From a virus, in the IMG/VR virus record IMGVR_UViG_3300025120_000061, positions 1-56,973 of that record: a stretch of 56,973 bases of DNA; one strand, written 5' to 3'. The notes below the pieces were generated by a model. That model worked only from the letters and a program-made list of their open reading frames with translations, was not told where the DNA came from and did no database searches. Made by a program: the position numbers and the translations under genes. Numbering within the stretch: the first letter of the stretch is position 1; every line of letters begins with the position of its first letter. Of this stretch, positions 3,601 to 35,663 are shown one piece after another.

Positions 3601-6600
3601 GTCTTAAACAACCAGTCTTGACTAAAATTATTTTCGTTAAGTGCATACTCCATCAAGCGGAAGAACAGTTCGTTCATGTTAATTTCGTAATCACCAACAA
3701 ATACATCTGTTTTTAATGCTTCAACAATCTGTCTTATCTCTTGTGCAGGCACTTTGTCAAATGCAGTAAAGTCAAATCCGTCATTATCAAAACCTGTTGC
3801 TTCAAAGTTGCTATTTGTTGTTGCAAAACTATACAGACTTGCGTTCAACTGCAGTGTGCCGCGTTCAATAATAACTTCATCCCAGCCTGTGTCGGTCTTA
3901 GCAAACATACTGAAGTTGCCTTCATCATTGCTGGTTACTTTAGCAATGTCGCCTGTCACTGCACTGGTAAGTGTAAGCAGGTCTGCTTCCAGTGTGACTT
4001 GATAAGCAGGCACTGTAGTTGCATCATAACCTGTTGCAAAATATGTTGCATAGTCCCAATAGTCTGATGTATTATAACCCTGAATATTTGATAACAGCCA
4101 ACTCTTGTCTGCCTGCAATGTATAAATGGTCCAGTAATCACTTTGGTTTTCATCTTCTAGAACTAGTACTTTATATCCTGTGCTTAAGATAGCAGTGTTA
4201 AGGAAATCTCTTTCCTGACTTGAATCAACAGTGATGTTATATTCACCACTGTTAACTGTAGGAATATTCTCACTGCTTAGTAGTTTTGTCAGGCTTGAGT
4301 TTCTAGCAAATGGTGCTTTTACGAGAACACTGTTTGTATACTGTGTTAGAACTTTAAGTGCTGCGGCACGGTTAACAAACATGCCTTGACGCGGTTGTGT
4401 AAGTACTCCGTACTTTTCAACTTCACTTAGGAATGGATCCGGGACAGGATTTCCTACACTGTCACTACCTGCTAAACTGTCAACAAGTTTTGTATACATT
4501 CTTGCTGGGATATCCTGATCAGTATTACCTCTGCCATATAGCTCAAACTCGCTATGCAGTATGCCCTCGTTTTTAACAACGTCATAGTTAATGCTTAATA
4601 CAACATCTTTGTCTGCAAAGTATTGTTTACAGTTAAAGAGCGCAACTGCATCTGTGTCTAAGAACGCAACGTGCGGTAAGCCTGCTGCTTTAGGATCTTC
4701 TATAAGACTACGCACACTGTCTGCACTGATAGTTCTAAACTCTGCATCACTAGGAACACTTGTAATGTCCTTAACCCAGAAGTAGTAGCGAGGCTGTGTG
4801 CTGTCTGTTTTACTTTCATATACATTTGCTATGTTAAACTGTGTAATATCTTTAACTGTGCCTTCGCCAGTATACTGACTTGGAGGAGTTGTGCTTTCAA
4901 TCCATTCGTAAACATCAATGCTGCTTCCAGGAAATGCTTGCGCCCAATAGTTTGTGCGGAAATTAATATTACCCTGTTCTGCATTTAGATAATGCACAGT
5001 GCTTGTATCCCACCAGAGTCTATTTTTGTATTTGTAGTTCCAAAGATTGTTGTACATTGCAGGATCTGCATGACTTACATAACTAAGTTCTGCACTTGCT
5101 ACCCCTGCAATCTTGCCTTTTGCTGGATCAATATAATCAAGGAAAACTTTAACTTCGCCGTCACGTTTGTTATAAAGTGCAACACGGTTAATTTGACTTA
5201 CGTCAACTCTTGTGCCTTCACTGCGTAGTACATTCCAACTGCCTGCTCTTGTATTGTTGTTAAACTCATATACACTTCCACTATTGTTATAAGTTGTAGT
5301 GCCGCTGGTTGTTGTATCGTTAGGCGCACCGACAAATATTCTGTTGTCATTGTATACAACTGCGCTGCCAAATTGATCTAATTCAAGAATGTTTGTGCTT
5401 TTAAGTTGCTGACCGAACACCATCTTACTTGGGTCTACGATGGTTGGAGCATTTGGATTTAGTAATTCGTAGGCATATACTGCGCCACTTTGTGTACGTC
5501 TATCAGTAAATGTTGTACCGCTTTGATCAAACGTTGTTGTTGCACTAAGATAGTTTTCACTGTTTGTATTTGTTTCGATGTCAAAACCTGTTGCAAGCAT
5601 TGTACTTGCTTTATCACTGGCAATAACAAGATTGCGTGTATCCGAATATGCGCTTGCACTATTATGAACATGTTTGTCAAATGCAACTTTTTCACCAAAG
5701 TTTTCATTTTCAAATGCCTGCGGATGACTAATTTTTTGTGTTAGTTTAAACGGATCAACAACTGCTCCACTTTGGAAACTTGTTCCCGTGCCTGGCATAA
5801 CGCTTAGTTTATTGTAAAGTTCTGTATTGGTTGTTGTAATAACAAGTTGATCAGCACTGTTTTTACTTGCAGTTACACCTGGGATATTTGCTGCAATAAT
5901 ATCTGCTGCTAGGTCTGCAGGATCTGTGCTTGAACTACTTGCTGTTACTTCACGATCATCAATGAACAATGTGTGTCCGCTTGTAATGCTATAAGTACCA
6001 CCTTGTTTACTAGTCACACTAGCATAGTTTTTGCCTGCGTCCTGTAGAATGAATACGCTGCCTGTGTTAGGATTTGTTTCATCTTCGCCAGGACTACCGA
6101 TAGCAATAACACTGCCTTTAGTATCAATACCGACACTAATGCCAAACTGCTCTTCGCCATTGGTCTCATCATCCAGATCCAACTGATCAATCTGCTGCAT
6201 CTGCGTAAATGTACCTGTGTACACTTGAATTATGTCACCTGCTGCAGGTGTAGTTTTGAAAGTTATAGTTTTACTTGCACGAGTATAAAATCCATCAGTT
6301 GATCCATCATTGTCCACTGGAACATCAGTATTATTTGTTTCAATTTGTAATACACCGTTTATTTCAACGTAAATTTTTGTTTGCAATGTGTTAGTTGTTG
6401 TAAATGCTTTTGCTGTGCCATCCGCAATAAACTTCTCAACATACTGCGCATAAAGATATGCTTCACCACTGTTTGCTTTGGCACTAATAGTTGCATTTGG
6501 CGCACCAACAATTACTCGTTTACCTGTGTAATCACAATCAATGCTGTGTCCAAAGGCACCACTGCCTGCTGTGTAATTACCAATTTCTCTGAAGTAATCC

Positions 6601-28159: not shown

Positions 28160-28892
28160 CGGTTTCGGAGATACTACACATAGCCCACTTTGGTATCAGC
28201 AGTTCTACAAGTGGCCTGATATAATTAAACTGATGTGCAAAAACATTGAGCTAGTTAACCTTAGTAGGTATGGAGCAGGTAACGAGTACATCATAAACGC
28301 ACTTAAACAAAACTATGCCAATGCTGATTTTGTTATAGTACAATGGGCATATCCTGCTAGGTTAGATTTAGTTTTAGATCACCAAGATGATTGTTGGCAA
28401 GAGCAAATAGCACTAGATCCTGTGTACAGTGAGAATATTGTTGAAATTAACAATGATCAGTACTGGCTAAGCAGTGCAAGCACCAATCCTGCAGTTGCGC
28501 AGTATCACAGCACAATTGCACTACGGCAACATCAAATACGCAGTCAGAACTATGTGGACTATGCACATAGACTATTACAAGATACGCCTTATCGTTTTAT
28601 GCTATGCGAAGACAGTTTGTATTTGCGAGAAACAGATGTTAGTCCAAATAGTTGGTGCTGGCACGATGAATATTTGGGTATGACTAGTTTTAAAAAAATT
28701 AGTAGATACTATAAAGAAGATGCAAAGGCTGATGTAATTCAACCTATCAGCCTTGTACAGTTTGACTTTATAAGAAAATATGTGCAGCCTTGTGTGGATT
28801 TTCCATGGCGCAACGAACGAGAAATACTTGCAGTAGAAAATATGTTGTATAAAAAATATCATGATGCTATAATAAACAAATGTTCAAATTAG
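28137..28892 (+). CDS. SGNH/GDSL-hydrolase-like protein
   Basis: A 251-residue protein with an SGNH-like layout: a first-strand motif LLTFSDGFGD in the block I position, then NLSRYGAGNEYIINAL resembling block III (G.N), followed by DFVIVQWAYPARLDLV, a pattern common in phage SGNH-like proteins. A convincing block V (DxxH) is not obvious; a WHDEYLG segment near residue 180 is the best candidate. If active it would be an esterase, perhaps acting on acylated surface glycans. It overlaps the preceding gene by 23 bases and its 3' end contains the gp46 promoter and the gp46 start codon (13-base overlap). Confidence 0.65.
   Translation: MRLLTFSDGFGDTTHSPLWYQQFYKWPDIIKLMCKNIELVNLSRYGAGNEYIINALKQNYANADFVIVQWAYPARLDLVLDHQDDCWQEQIALDPVYSENIVEINNDQYWLSSASTNPAVAQYHSTIALRQHQIRSQNYVDYAHRLLQDTPYRFMLCEDSLYLRETDVSPNSWCWHDEYLGMTSFKKISRYYKEDAKADVIQPISLVQFDFIRKYVQPCVDFPWRNEREILAVENMLYKKYHDAIINKCSN
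28845..28873 (+). promoter_or_regulatory. Sigma70-type promoter at gp46, predicted leaderless mRNA
   Basis: TTGTAT (28845-28850), a 17-base spacer and TATAAT (28868-28873) lie inside the end of the SGNH-like gene. The gp46 ATG is at 28880, six bases after the -10 element, the same spacing as at gp47. The 17 bases ending in the ATG differ from those at gp47 at two positions only. Confidence 0.7.
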
Positions 28893-30643
28893 ATACACTT
28901 ACAGTAAAAAACTTTATGAGCGTGGGTAACACCACACAAGCCATTGACTTTAACCGCAATGACCTTACACTGGTGCTAGGTGAAAACTTAGACACAGGAG
29001 GAGGAGATGCTGGCAGTAGAAATGGTACTGGCAAGACTACTATCATTAATGCGCTAAGTTACGCACTTTATGGTAATGCACTTACAAATATTCGCAAGGA
29101 CAACTTGATTAACAAAACCAATGGTAAGAACATGCTTACCACTGTGGAGTTTGAAAAAGATGGACTAGCATATCGTATTGAACGTGGACGTAAGCCAAAT
29201 GTGCTAAAGTTTTACATTAACAACAACGAGCAAGAAACAGAGGATAATGCACAAGGAGATAGCAGAGAAACACAAAAGGCTATCGAAGAACTGTTAGGTA
29301 TGTCACACGACATGTTTAAACATGTGCTTGCACTAAACACATACAGTGAACCTTTTCTAAGCATGCGCACCAACGATCAACGTGCTATCATTGAACAGTT
29401 GTTAGGTATTACTATTCTCAGTGAAAAAGCAGAAAATCTCAAAGAAATGGTGCGTGTAACTAAGAACAAGATTCAAGAAGAAGAGTTCCGTATCAAAGCA
29501 GTCGAAGATGCTAACGGCAAAATTGTAGAGCAAGTTGATGCACTAAAACGCAGACAGCGTATGTGGCAAGACAAAAAAGATCAGGACATTGCAAACTTTA
29601 AAACAGCAATAAACGACCTTAGTCATGTTGACATTGACGAAGAGCTTAGAGCGCACACTGAACTTGCAGACTGGAATACACTAAACAATGCACAAGTGCA
29701 ACTACAAAAAGACGTTGCTGCACTGCAAGCACAGGAAGGCAGAGCAGAGCGCGATGTTAAAAAAGCAAACAAAGCTCTAGTAGGATGGCAAGATGGAGTG
29801 TGTCATAGTTGCAATCAAAGCATTACACACTTAGATAGTCATAAACAAGAGATTGAAAAAGCGGAGAAGGAACATGACGAAGCAAATAATTTCCTTACAG
29901 AATTACAAACAGCAATTACAGAGCTCAGAGCTCAAGAAGAAACAGTCCCAAGCAAACCACGAACTTTCTATGATAGCGCCAATGATGCACACAACCATCG
30001 TTCAAGCCTATCCACACTGGAATCACAACTACAAAGTAAGCAAGATGAAAGTGACCCTTACACCGATCAAATAGCAGAAATGGAAACTACTGCAGTTCAG
30101 GAGGTTACCTGGGATAGTATAAATGAACTTACCCGGGTGCAGAATCATCAAGAGTTCTTGCTTAAACTGCTTACTAACAAAGACAGTTTTATCCGCAAAC
30201 GTATTATTGATCAGAACCTTGCATACTTAAATACAAGACTAGAAGGTTACCTGGGCGCAGTTGGACTACCACACACGGTGGTGTTCCAAAATGATCTAAC
30301 AGTAGAAATACAAGAACTAGGTAGAGACTTGGACTTTGACAACTTGAGCAGAGGTGAACGTAACAGACTTATACTAAGCCTAAGTTGGGCGTTCCGTGAT
30401 GTTTGGGAAAGCCTATATCAGCCAATCAACTTGTTGTTTATTGACGAACTAGTTGACAGTGGCATGGATAGTGCAGGTGTAGAAAACGCCATGGGTGTAC
30501 TAAAACGAATGAGCAGAGAGCGTAACAAAAGTGTATGGCTAGTAAGTCACAAAGATGAACTTATAGGGCGTGTCAACAATGTACTTAAAGTTATCAAAGA
30601 AAATGGCTTTACTAGTTATGATACTGATGTAGAACTAGTATGA
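28880..30643 (+). CDS. 46: Recombination nuclease ATPase gp46 (Rad50/SbcC family)
   Basis: An SMC-like ATPase of 587 residues (T4 gp46 about 560). Seen: Walker A near residues 45-53 (GSRNGTGKT), a coiled-coil arm with a zinc hook CHSC near residue 308, the ABC signature LSRGERNR near 489, Walker B LLFIDE near 519 and a following D-loop SGMD. It partners gp47 in end resection and recombination-dependent replication. The insertion GGGDAG just before Walker A lengthens the P-loop region. The start is at the predicted transcription start of an internal promoter, and the stop overlaps the radical SAM start (ATGA). Confidence 0.96.
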   Translation: MFKLDTLTVKNFMSVGNTTQAIDFNRNDLTLVLGENLDTGGGDAGSRNGTGKTTIINALSYALYGNALTNIRKDNLINKTNGKNMLTTVEFEKDGLAYRIERGRKPNVLKFYINNNEQETEDNAQGDSRETQKAIEELLGMSHDMFKHVLALNTYSEPFLSMRTNDQRAIIEQLLGITILSEKAENLKEMVRVTKNKIQEEEFRIKAVEDANGKIVEQVDALKRRQRMWQDKKDQDIANFKTAINDLSHVDIDEELRAHTELADWNTLNNAQVQLQKDVAALQAQEGRAERDVKKANKALVGWQDGVCHSCNQSITHLDSHKQEIEKAEKEHDEANNFLTELQTAITELRAQEETVPSKPRTFYDSANDAHNHRSSLSTLESQLQSKQDESDPYTDQIAEMETTAVQEVTWDSINELTRVQNHQEFLLKLLTNKDSFIRKRIIDQNLAYLNTRLEGYLGAVGLPHTVVFQNDLTVEIQELGRDLDFDNLSRGERNRLILSLSWAFRDVWESLYQPINLLFIDELVDSGMDSAGVENAMGVLKRMSRERNKSVWLVSHKDELIGRVNNVLKVIKENGFTSYDTDVELV

Positions 30644-31743: not shown

Positions 31744-32172
31744 ATGGAACAACACTGGTACTATAATAACGAAATTATCGAAGAACTACCAGAAGGTTCT
31801 GTGGGCTTTGTTTATTTGATTACAAACTTGACTAACAATAGAAAATACATTGGCAAAAAACTGGCACAATTCAAAAGAACTAAACCACCCCTAAAAGGCA
31901 GAAAAAACAAAAGGCGTAGCACTGTTGAAAGTGACTGGCGCGAATATTACGGCTCATCCGACGAACTATCAGCAGACGTTGCTGAACTAGGCCCACAAAG
32001 TTTCAAACGTGAAATCCTGTTCTATTGCACTAGCAAAAGTGAACTAAGTTATGTTGAAGCGAGAGAACAATTCAATCACAAAGTATTAGAATCTGACGAA
32101 TGGTACAACGGGCACATTAGAGTGAGAGTACATCAAAAAGGTATTCTCAACAACAAACAATTAAATGGCTAG
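31744..32172 (+). CDS. GIY-YIG-type endonuclease
   Basis: A 142-residue protein whose N-terminus has the two-part GIY-YIG signature as FVYLITNLTNNRKYIGKK (about residues 22-39), followed by a basic Lys/Arg-rich loop (residues about 43-60) and the segment SDWREYYGSSDEL. The family cuts DNA and is used in phages for homing or for host DNA degradation. The usual catalytic Glu may be in SYVEAREQF near residue 110. There is no good ribosome site before the ATG. It is the last plus-strand gene before the structured non-coding block at 32173-32577, a location that makes a homing-type origin conceivable but unproven. Confidence 0.75.
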   Translation: MEQHWYYNNEIIEELPEGSVGFVYLITNLTNNRKYIGKKLAQFKRTKPPLKGRKNKRRSTVESDWREYYGSSDELSADVAELGPQSFKREILFYCTSKSELSYVEAREQFNHKVLESDEWYNGHIRVRVHQKGILNNKQLNG

Positions 32173-32443
32173 ATAGTGTTACAATAGAATTAATTTGGCG
32201 TTTACGGTCTACGCATTAAACCGTCGTTAACACAAGTAAAACCAACTTTAGGCACAAAAGATAGCGGCTCTGAGAAAAAGCAACCGCGACTGGACATGTA
32301 TTGCTGTTATGATATATGTAAGGTTCCGAAACTATCAGTGAAGGCTGAAGTAGGGGGTAAACGGGTTTCCGCCTCCGTGCAGCAATGCAATCTTCTTATA
32401 ACAGATGAGCGAGACACGCAGATGATGGCGTCTTTTTTCATGG

Positions 32444-32465
32444 CTTCGCCCGGCAACGGGTGAAG
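32444..32465. repeat. GNRA-capped hairpin
   Basis: CTTCGCCCG - GCAA - CGGGTGAAG forms a 9-base-pair stem (one G-T) closed by a GCAA tetraloop on the plus strand. GNRA loops are typical of structured RNA rather than of rho-independent terminators, and there is no T-run after it. Confidence 0.6.
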
Positions 32466-32493
32466 TATGAGTTCAACTTCGAGATGATAGCAC

Positions 32494-32551
32494 TTCACTT
32501 CGTTCATAATATAATGTGTTCTAATAAAAAAAAGTGATTGAACGAAGTGAA
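32494..32551. repeat. Perfect 12-base inverted repeat
   Basis: TTCACTTCGTTC (32494-32505) and GAACGAAGTGAA (32540-32551) are perfect complements separated by 34 AT-rich bases that include a run of eight A. On the minus strand this follows the gp26/gp51 terminator hairpin and offers a T8 tract. Confidence 0.7.
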
Positions 32552-32557
32552 AAGAAC

Positions 32558-32577
32558 GAATGAGCTTTAGCTCATTC
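32558..32577. terminator. Hairpin between convergent operons, probable bidirectional terminator
   Basis: GAATGAGC - TTTA - GCTCATTC, a perfect 8-base-pair stem abutting the stop codon (32578-32580) of the gp51-like frame. The T-tracts on both sides are weak (TTAAATT on plus, GTTCTTTTC on minus), so efficiency is uncertain. Confidence 0.6.
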
Positions 32578-32811
32578 TTAAATTATCAATTGATTAGCTT
32601 TCTTACTCATTTCTAAATTCTCTTCGATAACTTCGTTAAAGAATTTAAAGTCTGACATAGGTAAATCTAAGAGTTCGCTGTAAGTAACTCCGCCTCGCAT
32701 ATACCAACATAACTGCGCAATGGTTTTCTTGATGCGAGCTATTTCTTTTTCGAATCCATTAAGTAGCCTCTCAATCTCAGGATTAGGTAATGCTAAGAGG
32801 CGAATACGAAA
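32578..32811 (-). CDS. 51: gp51-like extension, -1 frame relative to gp26 (frameshift product)
   Basis: An open frame encoding 77 residues after the shift point, with no ATG, GTG or TTG for its first about 36 codons. It contains a helix PNPEIERLLNGFEKEIARIK, then LCWYMRGGVTYSELLDLPMS and FFNEVIEENLEMSKK. I recognise the MRGG(V/I).Y pattern as typical of the small gp51-type baseplate-hub assembly proteins of marine T4-like phages. The frame is open only from 32823, just upstream of the slippery site, because a TGA closes it there. Reading through the shift gives a 371-residue gp26-gp51 fusion (base 32811 read twice). An internal ATG at the MRGG would give only 42 residues. Confidence 0.75.
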   Translation of the reverse strand, partial: FRIRLLALPNPEIERLLNGFEKEIARIKKTIAQLCWYMRGGVTYSELLDLPMSDFKFFNEVIEENLEMSKKANQLII

Positions 32812-32817
32812 AAATTT
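32766..32817 (-). promoter_or_regulatory. Programmed -1 ribosomal frameshift signal
   Basis: On the minus strand the gp26 codons AAT TTT form the slippery heptamer A AAT TTT (complement of 32811-32817), fitting X XXY YYZ. After a 9-base spacer, GCCTCTTA (32801-32794) pairs with TGAGAGGC (32773-32766): six Watson-Crick pairs, one G-T and one A-T, with a 20-base loop. The -1 frame then stays open for 77 codons, whereas the gp26 frame stops five codons after the heptamer. Confidence 0.75.
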
Positions 32818-33692
32818 GCTTGGTCAAACGTAAATGGGCTTTGATACTTGTGACTGCATTCATCACAGGTGTGTTCTACAGTTTTATCTGGAATGCCTGC
32901 ATTAATCTGATCTAGTTTTTTCTTTACGCTATCAAACAACTGTCTTTCACTGTTTGTTACATATTCTTCAATAAACTCTGGATCTGATACATGTTCACCA
33001 TCAGGTGTAACAATTTGAACAATTGTATTGCTAACATTTTTCACAGTATACTCTGTCATCTTTTTAAAGATCTTATAGAACCGTTCTTGTTTTTCTTCTT
33101 CACTGAGTGTACTGTCTCCAATAACACTTACCAGTCTTTGCTGTTCGAACCTTTCAATGTTTTGCATATTAATAGTATCATAGTCAATAGGCTTTAGATA
33201 TATTTGCATGCCTTTGTATTCAAATGGTTGTGCATATCCTGTCATATCTACTGGAATATCCATGAAAATACGCAGATCAATTTCGTATTCGTCAGTGTTT
33301 TCGCAACTTGGACAGCTACTGGTATATTCCATTTTTTCACCGTAACTAGCAATTCTAATGCCAATTAACACTGTATCTAAATCAGTAGCAGGTAATGCCC
33401 AAGCATTTTTAATGTTTGGTATACAACTGTGAATCATATCTACCACTGCTTGTCCGTTAAGCAACGCATCTGGAGTATTGAGTGCAATTTCGTCTCTGGT
33501 GCTCATGGGCATTACAGGTATTTCATTGCTAACGGGCATTTCTAGCGCACCTGCTAGCCAATACTGACCATTGCTGGGTAGTTTGATGTAAATTGCAGGC
33601 TGCCGCATAAATTTTTGTAGAGGATTTGTTCTGTTTTGCATATGTGCAACTTGCTCAGGATTCATTGAAAAGTTCTCGGGTACTTCGACCAT
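32793..33692 (-). CDS. 26: Baseplate hub/assembly protein gp26
   Basis: T4 gp26-type baseplate protein of 299 residues (T4 about 208), starting MVEVPENFSMNPEQ. The ATG at 33692 has GGAG six bases upstream; an upstream extension of the frame lacks support. Two CxxC pairs, CPSC near residue 155 and CDEC near 280, suggest a zinc ribbon. The end TFDQANFFVFAS is typical of the family. In T4, gp26 and gp51 are needed for assembling the hub around the tape measure, though gp51 is a separate gene there. A perfect late promoter at 33737-33744 drives it. Just before the stop the frame crosses a slippery heptamer leading into the gp51-like frame. Confidence 0.85.
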   Translation of the reverse strand: MVEVPENFSMNPEQVAHMQNRTNPLQKFMRQPAIYIKLPSNGQYWLAGALEMPVSNEIPVMPMSTRDEIALNTPDALLNGQAVVDMIHSCIPNIKNAWALPATDLDTVLIGIRIASYGEKMEYTSSCPSCENTDEYEIDLRIFMDIPVDMTGYAQPFEYKGMQIYLKPIDYDTINMQNIERFEQQRLVSVIGDSTLSEEEKQERFYKIFKKMTEYTVKNVSNTIVQIVTPDGEHVSDPEFIEEYVTNSERQLFDSVKKKLDQINAGIPDKTVEHTCDECSHKYQSPFTFDQANFFVFAS

Positions 33693-33714
33693 GTGTTTCT
33701 CCAGGTAAATACAT

Positions 33715-33744: not shown

Positions 33745-33770
33745 TACGCATATAATTGGAGATTTTTTCT

Positions 33771-35663
33771 TTGCCCGTAATTGACATTCCAGGATTTGGT
33801 GCTGTACAAGCAGATAACTTTGCAAGCGAGCAAACGCTAAACCGTTTGGTTGATGCTGTAAACAATCAAACCACAGGTGCAGGCGGCATTCAAAGTATCT
33901 TTGCTTCAGTTGCCGGTGATAGTAAGCGTACAGCAAGAGACTTGCAACAGTTGGGCCAGTCTGCTGACAATACTAAAAGCAGTATGCAAGCGCAAAGCAG
34001 TGCAGCCGAGACACTAACAAAACGTAATATGCAAGCAAGCAATAGTTTTGCTTCGTTCAGTCGCAAAATGAGTTCAATAAGTTTTGAAAGTCCGATAGCT
34101 ATGCTGTCAGCAGGTGTGGAGAAATTTACTGGGTTAGTTGGAGATAACGCAGGTGCAATTACAGCAGCAGGTGCTGCAGCAGGCGCAGCATTTGGCGGAC
34201 CAGCTGGATTGATGCTTGGCGGCGCTCTTGCTGGTTTAGCAGTTGGCATGACACAAGTGACAGGTGTCCTAGGCGGCGTATTGTTAGGTGATTTAGAAAA
34301 GATGGCTACACAATTTGGCAAAGCGCAACAAGCGGGTGCTGTTTTTGGAAATAGCATGCTTAACTTTAGAAACATTTCTAGTAATAGCGGGCTTACAATG
34401 GAACAGTTTGGTAATGTTGTTACTAAAAATACAGAAGCCGTTGCTATGTTTGGTGGTACTACTAGTCAAGGTGCACAAGAATTTGCAAGAGCAAATAGTT
34501 TACTCATAAGACAACACGGAAATGATTTACAGCGACTGGGCGTGAGCTATGAGGAAATGGGCATGCGCACAGCAGACTTTATGGCTTCATTAGTAGAAGC
34601 TGGTGTGCCCATTTATGAAAATGGTGTTGCAACACAGGATGTAGTCAGACGAACTAAAGAACTAGCAGTCCAGCAAAAAGCACTGGCAGCAATTAATGGT
34701 ACTACTATTGACCAAGAAAAAGAAAAGCAGCGTATGCAACGCAAAGATGCACAGATGAACGCAGTTCTAATGGGCCTAAACGAAAAAGAGCGTGAAGTTG
34801 TTCAACAACTATCAGCACAGTTTCCTCAGGCTACACAGTTTATTAAAGAGTTTGTAGCATTTGGTGGACCAGTTACCAAAGAAGGAAATTTGCAGGCTGC
34901 AATGATGGGCACTCTTACTAGTGAAATTGGCAATACTATTACTGCAGTGAAAAATGGACAAAGTGTACCAGGTGCGTTAGGAGCACTAGAAAATCTTGCA
35001 GAAAGCAGTCCACAAATAGCTGCAGAAACACGAGCAATGGCTGATATGGTTAAACTAAGTATCGCGGGTAGTACAAACAGTGTTGTACAGATGGCAGAAA
35101 AGAACTTTAATGCACAGTTTGAACTTATGAATAAAACACAAGCTGGTGTTGTGCAAAATGTATTGGATACTCTTACTCCAGACTTAAAAGGATTTAAAAA
35201 TGCAGTCGACCCGGCAACAGAAGCAGTGGTAAAATTTGGAGATGCATTTCAGAGAATACAAACAAGCATAAGCCAGTTAGCTGAGACAGCATACAGAAGT
35301 GACGTTGGAACAGGTGCGCTTGCAGCTGGTGCGAACGCAATAGGAATGGCTTCTCGTGTTGCACAAGCAGGCGCTGCACAATTTGGAAACACCACAGCGG
35401 CAACAGGCGCTGCTGGCCCTTCTATTGATATTACTCGTCAAGGATTTGCAGGAATGCAAGAAGGTGGTCCAATAGACACAATGATAGCTGCGTTGCCAGA
35501 TAGTATAGAAAAAGCAGTTAATAAAGCAATGTCGGGTATCAGCGATGCTATTACAGGCGGAAATGTAGTAGCGAGTTCTCAACTTACTGATTTGGTTGCA
35601 GAACAAAAGAAAACCACAGATGCAATGAATCGTCTTACTGATGCTACAAAGATGACACAATAA
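33771..35663 (+). CDS. Probable tail tape-measure protein (gp29-like role)
   Basis: A 630-residue protein starting at TTG 33771 (MPVIDIPGFGAVQADN), chosen because GGAG lies 9 bases upstream; another in-frame TTG at 33756 would overlap that site. Residues about 125-180 are a long Gly/Ala hydrophobic segment (AGAITAAGAAAGAAFGGPAG..) able to span a membrane, flanked by long amphipathic helical, Gln/Ala-rich regions. This layout, the size (T4 gp29 about 590) and the position next to gp26/gp51 fit a tape measure, which sets tail length and enters the inner membrane. No sequence signature proves it. It is followed by the portal gene. Confidence 0.65.
   Translation: MPVIDIPGFGAVQADNFASEQTLNRLVDAVNNQTTGAGGIQSIFASVAGDSKRTARDLQQLGQSADNTKSSMQAQSSAAETLTKRNMQASNSFASFSRKMSSISFESPIAMLSAGVEKFTGLVGDNAGAITAAGAAAGAAFGGPAGLMLGGALAGLAVGMTQVTGVLGGVLLGDLEKMATQFGKAQQAGAVFGNSMLNFRNISSNSGLTMEQFGNVVTKNTEAVAMFGGTTSQGAQEFARANSLLIRQHGNDLQRLGVSYEEMGMRTADFMASLVEAGVPIYENGVATQDVVRRTKELAVQQKALAAINGTTIDQEKEKQRMQRKDAQMNAVLMGLNEKEREVVQQLSAQFPQATQFIKEFVAFGGPVTKEGNLQAAMMGTLTSEIGNTITAVKNGQSVPGALGALENLAESSPQIAAETRAMADMVKLSIAGSTNSVVQMAEKNFNAQFELMNKTQAGVVQNVLDTLTPDLKGFKNAVDPATEAVVKFGDAFQRIQTSISQLAETAYRSDVGTGALAAGANAIGMASRVAQAGAAQFGNTTAATGAAGPSIDITRQGFAGMQEGGPIDTMIAALPDSIEKAVNKAMSGISDAITGGNVVASSQLTDLVAEQKKTTDAMNRLTDATKMTQ

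Follow-up and report, generated by a model that had tools for sequence, protein, structure and literature searches.

A gp26-type gene and an overlapping −1 frame joined by a probable ribosomal frameshift in a T4-like phage and its relatives

Short and long tail assembly chaperones in described phages

Frameshifting tail chaperones are already known in tailed phages, T4 relatives included, and the locus described here is a well-supported further case. The lambda pair gpG/gpGT (Xu, Hendrix, Duda 2004; reviewed in PMC5009743) differs from it in using another slippery word, with no sequence similarity shown, and in its gene order: the lambda tape measure gene lies downstream, whereas in the window (the whole 56,973-nucleotide stretch of viral DNA that we analysed) a tape-measure-like gene is divergent. 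According to the same review, G–T frameshifting is conserved in long-tailed phages 'except T4' (PMC5009743), and T4 gp26 and gp51 have been classed as baseplate hub assembly chaperones (PMC3004832). PMC10885494 and PMC12846349 credit T4-like tail assembly chaperones to Vladimirov, Gautam, Davidson 2022 (Virology 566:9-15). Citing that work, the former describes some T4-like phages in which two separate genes, one short and one a long fusion, take the place of frameshifting, and the latter names poly-T motifs as frameshift signals in T4-like phages. That the chaperones of Vladimirov et al. are gp26 and gp51 is our own reading of these citing statements together with the T4 paralogy described below; so read, they share with the window's gene the gp26 family (PF12322), the short and long form and the poly-T site credited to that study. 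Several literature searches for gp26/gp51 frameshifting itself gave no hits, or only unrelated phages with coincidental gene numbers.

In T4, gp26 (208 aa) and gp51 (249 aa) each match the whole length of PF12322, and also phrog_150; gp51 has in addition a C-terminal extension with a match to phrog_634, the cyanophage gp51 family (E 2.5e-9 for the cyanophage gp51 profile against the T4 gp51 C-terminus). Judged by these profiles, the two are paralogues, one a short and the other a long form. Genes 26 and 51 are divergent neighbours, and gene 26 ends in GAG TTC TTT, without a slippery word. As both proteins share PF12322, gp51 is the longer and the slippery word is absent, T4 would make its equivalent short/long pair from two duplicated genes, where the window phage and others would use one gene and a frameshift. 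The textbook exception would then fall under the general rule, its short and long forms being encoded by paralogues.

The gp26-type gene and the frame that overlaps its end

The elements of the locus all lie on the minus strand, except for the divergent neighbour:

33692–32793, minus: gp26-type gene, short form, N-terminal part of the putative tail assembly chaperone (PF12322, phrog_150, AF2/Foldseek)
33699–33702, minus: GGAG, Shine-Dalgarno-like, upstream of the gp26 ATG (sequence)
32824–32826, minus: TGA that closes the −1 frame upstream (sequence)
32811–32817, minus: A AAT TTT, the heptamer first proposed, overlapping T TTT TTC and not conserved (44/90 loci)
32808–32814, minus: slippery heptamer T TTT TTC, frame 0 TTT TTC, shifted TTT TTT (invariance across loci)
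32802–32807, minus: spacer GTATTC, 6 bases from T TTT TTC (sequence)
32793–32801, minus: 5' arm of the stem, GCCTCTTAG, including the zero-frame stop TAG (dinucleotide-shuffle test of the helix, p=0.01; retained in 11 close relatives)
32766–32774, minus: 3' arm of the stem, TTGAGAGGC (helix test; kept in close relatives)
32578–32814, minus: −1 frame extension, predicted helical C-terminal domain, gp51-like by position (conserved motif, pN/pS, AF2)
32558–32577, minus: perfect palindrome of 8 bp, GAATGAGCTAAAGCTCATTC, adjoining the TAA and terminator-like (compensatory changes)
33756–35663, plus: divergent neighbour, tape-measure-like protein of 635 aa (HHalign to its jumbo-phage counterpart)

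The gp26-type frame runs from the ATG at 33692 to the stop TAG at 32793-32795, where the minus strand reads ...FTFDQANFFVFAS, and encodes 299 aa. Its product matches PF12322 at 3.3e-16 (60 bits against a cut-off of 24.5, profile positions 15-217/219) and phrog_150 (baseplate hub) at 2.3e-19, and there is one PF12322 copy in the whole record. On these profile matches, the gene is a member of the T4 gp26 family (PF12322/phrog_150). An AF2 model of the product (pLDDT 84) had 'Baseplate hub assembly protein, T4-like' as its best Foldseek match (E 8e-26). Foldseek against the PDB gave no significant match, and a sequence search found no solved structures for the family. The HK97 tail assembly chaperone gp13 (2ob9) aligned with the model over 101/107 residues with a rmsd of 4.9 and a Z of 4.9, which is within the range of unrelated matches. 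Two CxxC pairs in gp26 (residues 127/130 and 276/279) are invariant in the first marine relatives and in 12 jumbo phages, which suggests a zinc site built from distant parts of the protein; the second pair sits 15 residues upstream of the shift site.

The −1 frame reads through ...KFFRIRLLALPNPEIERLL... towards the TAA at 32580-32578, which it reaches 78 codons from the shifted TTT TTT. The fused product is predicted to have 371 aa (295 + 76). Over 11 close relatives, this frame has a pN/pS of 0.38 and no stops, against 1.14 and 1.43 and 59 and 79 stops for the other two frames of the same sequences. The extension also has the conserved motif FFR.RLL...EI...WYMRGG..S..E...L. The −1 frame is thus coding and under purifying selection. 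In the AF2 model of the extension (pLDDT 88), helices span residues 11-40, 45-49 and 53-73. Directly after the TAA, the palindrome GAATGAGCTTTAGCTCATTC (32558-32577) shows compensatory G-C/A-U changes in relatives and looks like a terminator for the gp26 unit.

The earlier note on this DNA had called the downstream frame gp51-like, a label for which position and one weak profile match speak; a search for phrog_634, the gp51 family, found no match in the window. Pfam and PHROG scans of the 77-aa second frame gave nothing significant, tblastn of the 79-aa frame in phages matched in Phosso and Atu_ph07 only, and Foldseek with the C-terminal model returned no significant match. When the 77-aa domain was compared with gp51 by HHalign, small alignments with few sequences gave 56%; larger alignments scored 16.1, where 40 column shuffles reached at most 8.5, with a probability of 4.8% without the junction residues. 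Homology of the domain to gp51 is therefore weak, and it is chiefly its position that makes the frame gp51-like. The best VIA-align match of the C-terminal model was TrmD at a Z of 4.1, which is helical noise.

The slippery site and the stem that follows it

The earlier note had placed a −1 frameshift at a heptamer A AAT TTT with a 9-base spacer and a stem behind it, in a −1 frame closed by a TGA upstream and open downstream. All of these elements are present on the minus strand. The junction reads GCA AAT TTT TTC, so that A AAT TTT and T TTT TTC overlap in the same phase with an offset of three bases, and slippage at either would give an identical protein (...QANFFRIRLL...). Conservation separates the two. 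In the alignment, T TTT TTC occupies one fixed in-frame position in 78/78 distinct loci of the window type from IMG/VR, in which the codon before TTT TTC is AAT, AGT, CAT, GAT, GCT, ACT or GGT and the last T alone is fixed. As a control, only 1/35 other Phe-Phe pairs within the same genes is encoded in this way. The word is also found at the junction in 12/12 jumbo phages, in 78/78 cyanophage-type loci and in S-PM2, P-SSM2 and KVP40; the pelagiphage HTVC008M has T TTT TTT. As T TTT TTC occurs in frame five times within the window (ATG-ORFs of at least 100 aa), it is its fixed junction position, not the word itself, that carries the evidence.

A AAT TTT is kept in 44/90 loci and has thus been lost in half of the relatives while both frames stayed, an outcome that counts against this heptamer as the conserved slippery site but leaves the shift standing. 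We therefore rejected it and read the site as T TTT TTC with a 6-base spacer; counted from A AAT TTT (32817-32811), the spacer would be the 9 bases TTCGTATTC.

The stem pairs GCCTCTTA(G) (32801-32793) with (T)TGAGAGGC (32774-32766) around a loop of 18 bases. Across 90 loci, a helix starting near the heptamer beats dinucleotide shuffles (p <=0.05) in 89%, and folding z averages −3.2 downstream and −0.14 in a control taken upstream (Wilcoxon 8e-15). Among the 40 sequences of one clade, a 10-pair helix is paired in 96% of cells, with five pairs changed on both sides (0/500 shuffles as high); when the partner is shifted by 1-3 columns, pairing falls to 21-59%. Loop length ranges from ~8 to 55 bases across clades and the position of the 5' arm is constant, which indicates that the structure is kept and not the sequence alone. 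As the stem is almost invariant in the window's own clade, the covariation signal stems from other clades. Many cyanophages have a stem of their own that starts ~5 bases past the heptamer.

The same arrangement recurs in described phages. In KVP40, S-PM2 and P-SSM2, a stem follows the in-frame T TTT TTC and gp51 lies in the −1 frame; they differ from the window in a second frame of ~60-65 codons. The jumbo phages RaK2, GAP32, CBB, BF, PBECO4, Munch, Atu_ph07, Phosso and others share the slippery word in all 12 cases and, in most, the gene order; they differ in the gp26 protein itself (26-31% identity) and in a second frame that is either unannotated or called hypothetical.

Comparison of loci shows that the frameshift is selected, as judged from the invariance of T TTT TTC at the junction, the stem and selection on both frames. 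The proposal of gp26 and a 371-residue fusion made by −1 frameshifting, as the T4-family equivalent of G/GT, is supported by more than 170 compared loci, and we consider it highly probable that one gene gives short and long tail assembly chaperone forms by −1 ribosomal frameshifting. Most ribosomes would stop at the TAG (32795-32793) and release gp26 (299 aa). The stem, which starts six bases past the heptamer, would delay a minority; these would slip on T TTT TTC to TTT TTT, with two Phe tRNAs re-pairing, and continue in the −1 frame to make the 371-aa protein, in which gp26 is extended by a helical domain of 76 residues. If the two forms work like gpG/gpGT of lambda, the short one may cover the tape measure protein, and the long one, the less abundant, may recruit tail tube subunits. 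The slippage itself, its rate and the roles of both forms are what we infer. It is also quite probable that marine T4-like, cyano-, Vibrio and jumbo phages ancestrally, and nearly universally, make the gp26/gp51 pair through T TTT TTC and a covarying stem close by, and that the two-gene state of T4 is a late duplication that replaced frameshifting.

Other readings, gene models and neighbouring sequence

The 635-aa neighbour aligned by HHalign at 99.2% with its positional counterpart in the jumbo phages (members of phrog_14121), and one phrog_14121 member also matches the tape-measure phrogs 4200, 167 and 4070 at ~3e-6; there was no profile match to T4 gp29. The neighbour is thus likely to be a tape measure. 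The earlier note's statement that the phage has its own tape measure beside gp26 accordingly holds as to adjacency, but the two genes are transcribed divergently. The window has, in order, a gp46-like gene (28880-30643), a radical SAM protein, a GIY-YIG-like ORF and the gp26 unit on the minus strand, and beyond it, divergently, the 635-aa protein and then the portal. Most jumbo phages examined have this order too: portal, large protein, divergent gp26 and small frame, followed by endonuclease VII and gp46 genes.

The frameshift could be real while both proteins serve baseplate hub assembly, with no action on the tape measure, a reading that we regard as rather unlikely. The hub and tape-measure readings may be one, since gp29, the tape measure of T4, belongs to the hub. 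Pfam and PHROG names and the T4 literature (PMC3004832) point to the hub, and as T4 gp26 and gp51 are classed as hub chaperones, tape-measure binding is a putative role in this family. Against a role restricted to the hub stand the short/long pair, the tape-measure-like neighbour with its kept synteny and the published reassignment of gp26/gp51 as tail assembly chaperones, as cited in PMC10885494 and PMC12846349.

Alternatively, the second frame might be a separate gene, coupled to gp26 and translated by reinitiation at or after the gp26 stop, with Phe-Phe kept for protein reasons. Start codons bear on this directly. Within the stretch of the −1 frame that runs from its upstream stop to codon 10, 27/90 loci have an ATG, among them Phosso and Atu_ph07 with ATGA overlaps; in most of the cyanophage loci sampled, an ATG stands at codon 5, a difference from the window that explains their annotation as a separate gene 51. 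However, 32/90 loci, including the window and nearly all its clade, have no ATG, GTG or TTG in that stretch; the only such ATG in the window's clade is at codon 8 in locus L041, and the first start codon of the frame in the window itself is codon 38. The earlier observation that no start covers the first helix is therefore correct for the window, and the lack of a start extends to nearly all of its clade but not to a minority of relatives or to many cyanophages. No evident ribosome site was seen at the candidate second-frame ATGs inspected, and conservation of Phe-Phe would leave the invariant choice of TTT TTC and the preceding T unexplained. Reinitiation is, in our judgement, very improbable.

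Still less probable is slippage of RNA polymerase, rather than the ribosome, on the T run. The run of six T in the heptamer would serve equally, but six is short for transcriptional slippage, and a covarying stem mostly 5-6 bases downstream in very different phages is placed as for a ribosomal stimulator. A broken gene or a sequencing error splitting one frame, for which nothing speaks besides the frame change itself, is refuted by counts: over 150 distinct sequences, finished isolate genomes included, change frame in the same way at this codon.

Ribosomal frameshifting, the preferred reading, would correct gene models in T4-like, cyano- and jumbo phages that omit the second frame or give it as a separate hypothetical gene or as gene 51. 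In the Klebsiella phage RaK2 (L013), the second frame (3846-4064) is unannotated in the RefSeq record, and in BF, CBB, GAP32, PBECO4, Munch and others it is a separate hypothetical protein; these models could be corrected. The loci also supply natural slippery sites, with stems that differ in loop length, on which frameshift rates can be measured.

Two observations concern the sequence downstream of the gp26 unit. The GIY-YIG homing-endonuclease-like ORF (31744-32172) has as its best PHROG family 447, labelled 'NAD synthetase', which is probably a mislabelled family. Between this ORF and the gp26/gp51 unit, directly downstream of the latter, lie ~430 bases without a convincing gene (32150-32580). 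The region gave no Rfam family, tRNA or tmRNA and no match among 50,697 phage records; it matches 11/13 relatives at 73-93% DNA identity, over most of its length in the majority. Read as plus-strand RNA, it gives a consensus structure (−66.7 kcal/mol) in which 12 pairs show two-sided changes, and is thus a candidate for an undescribed conserved structured phage RNA.
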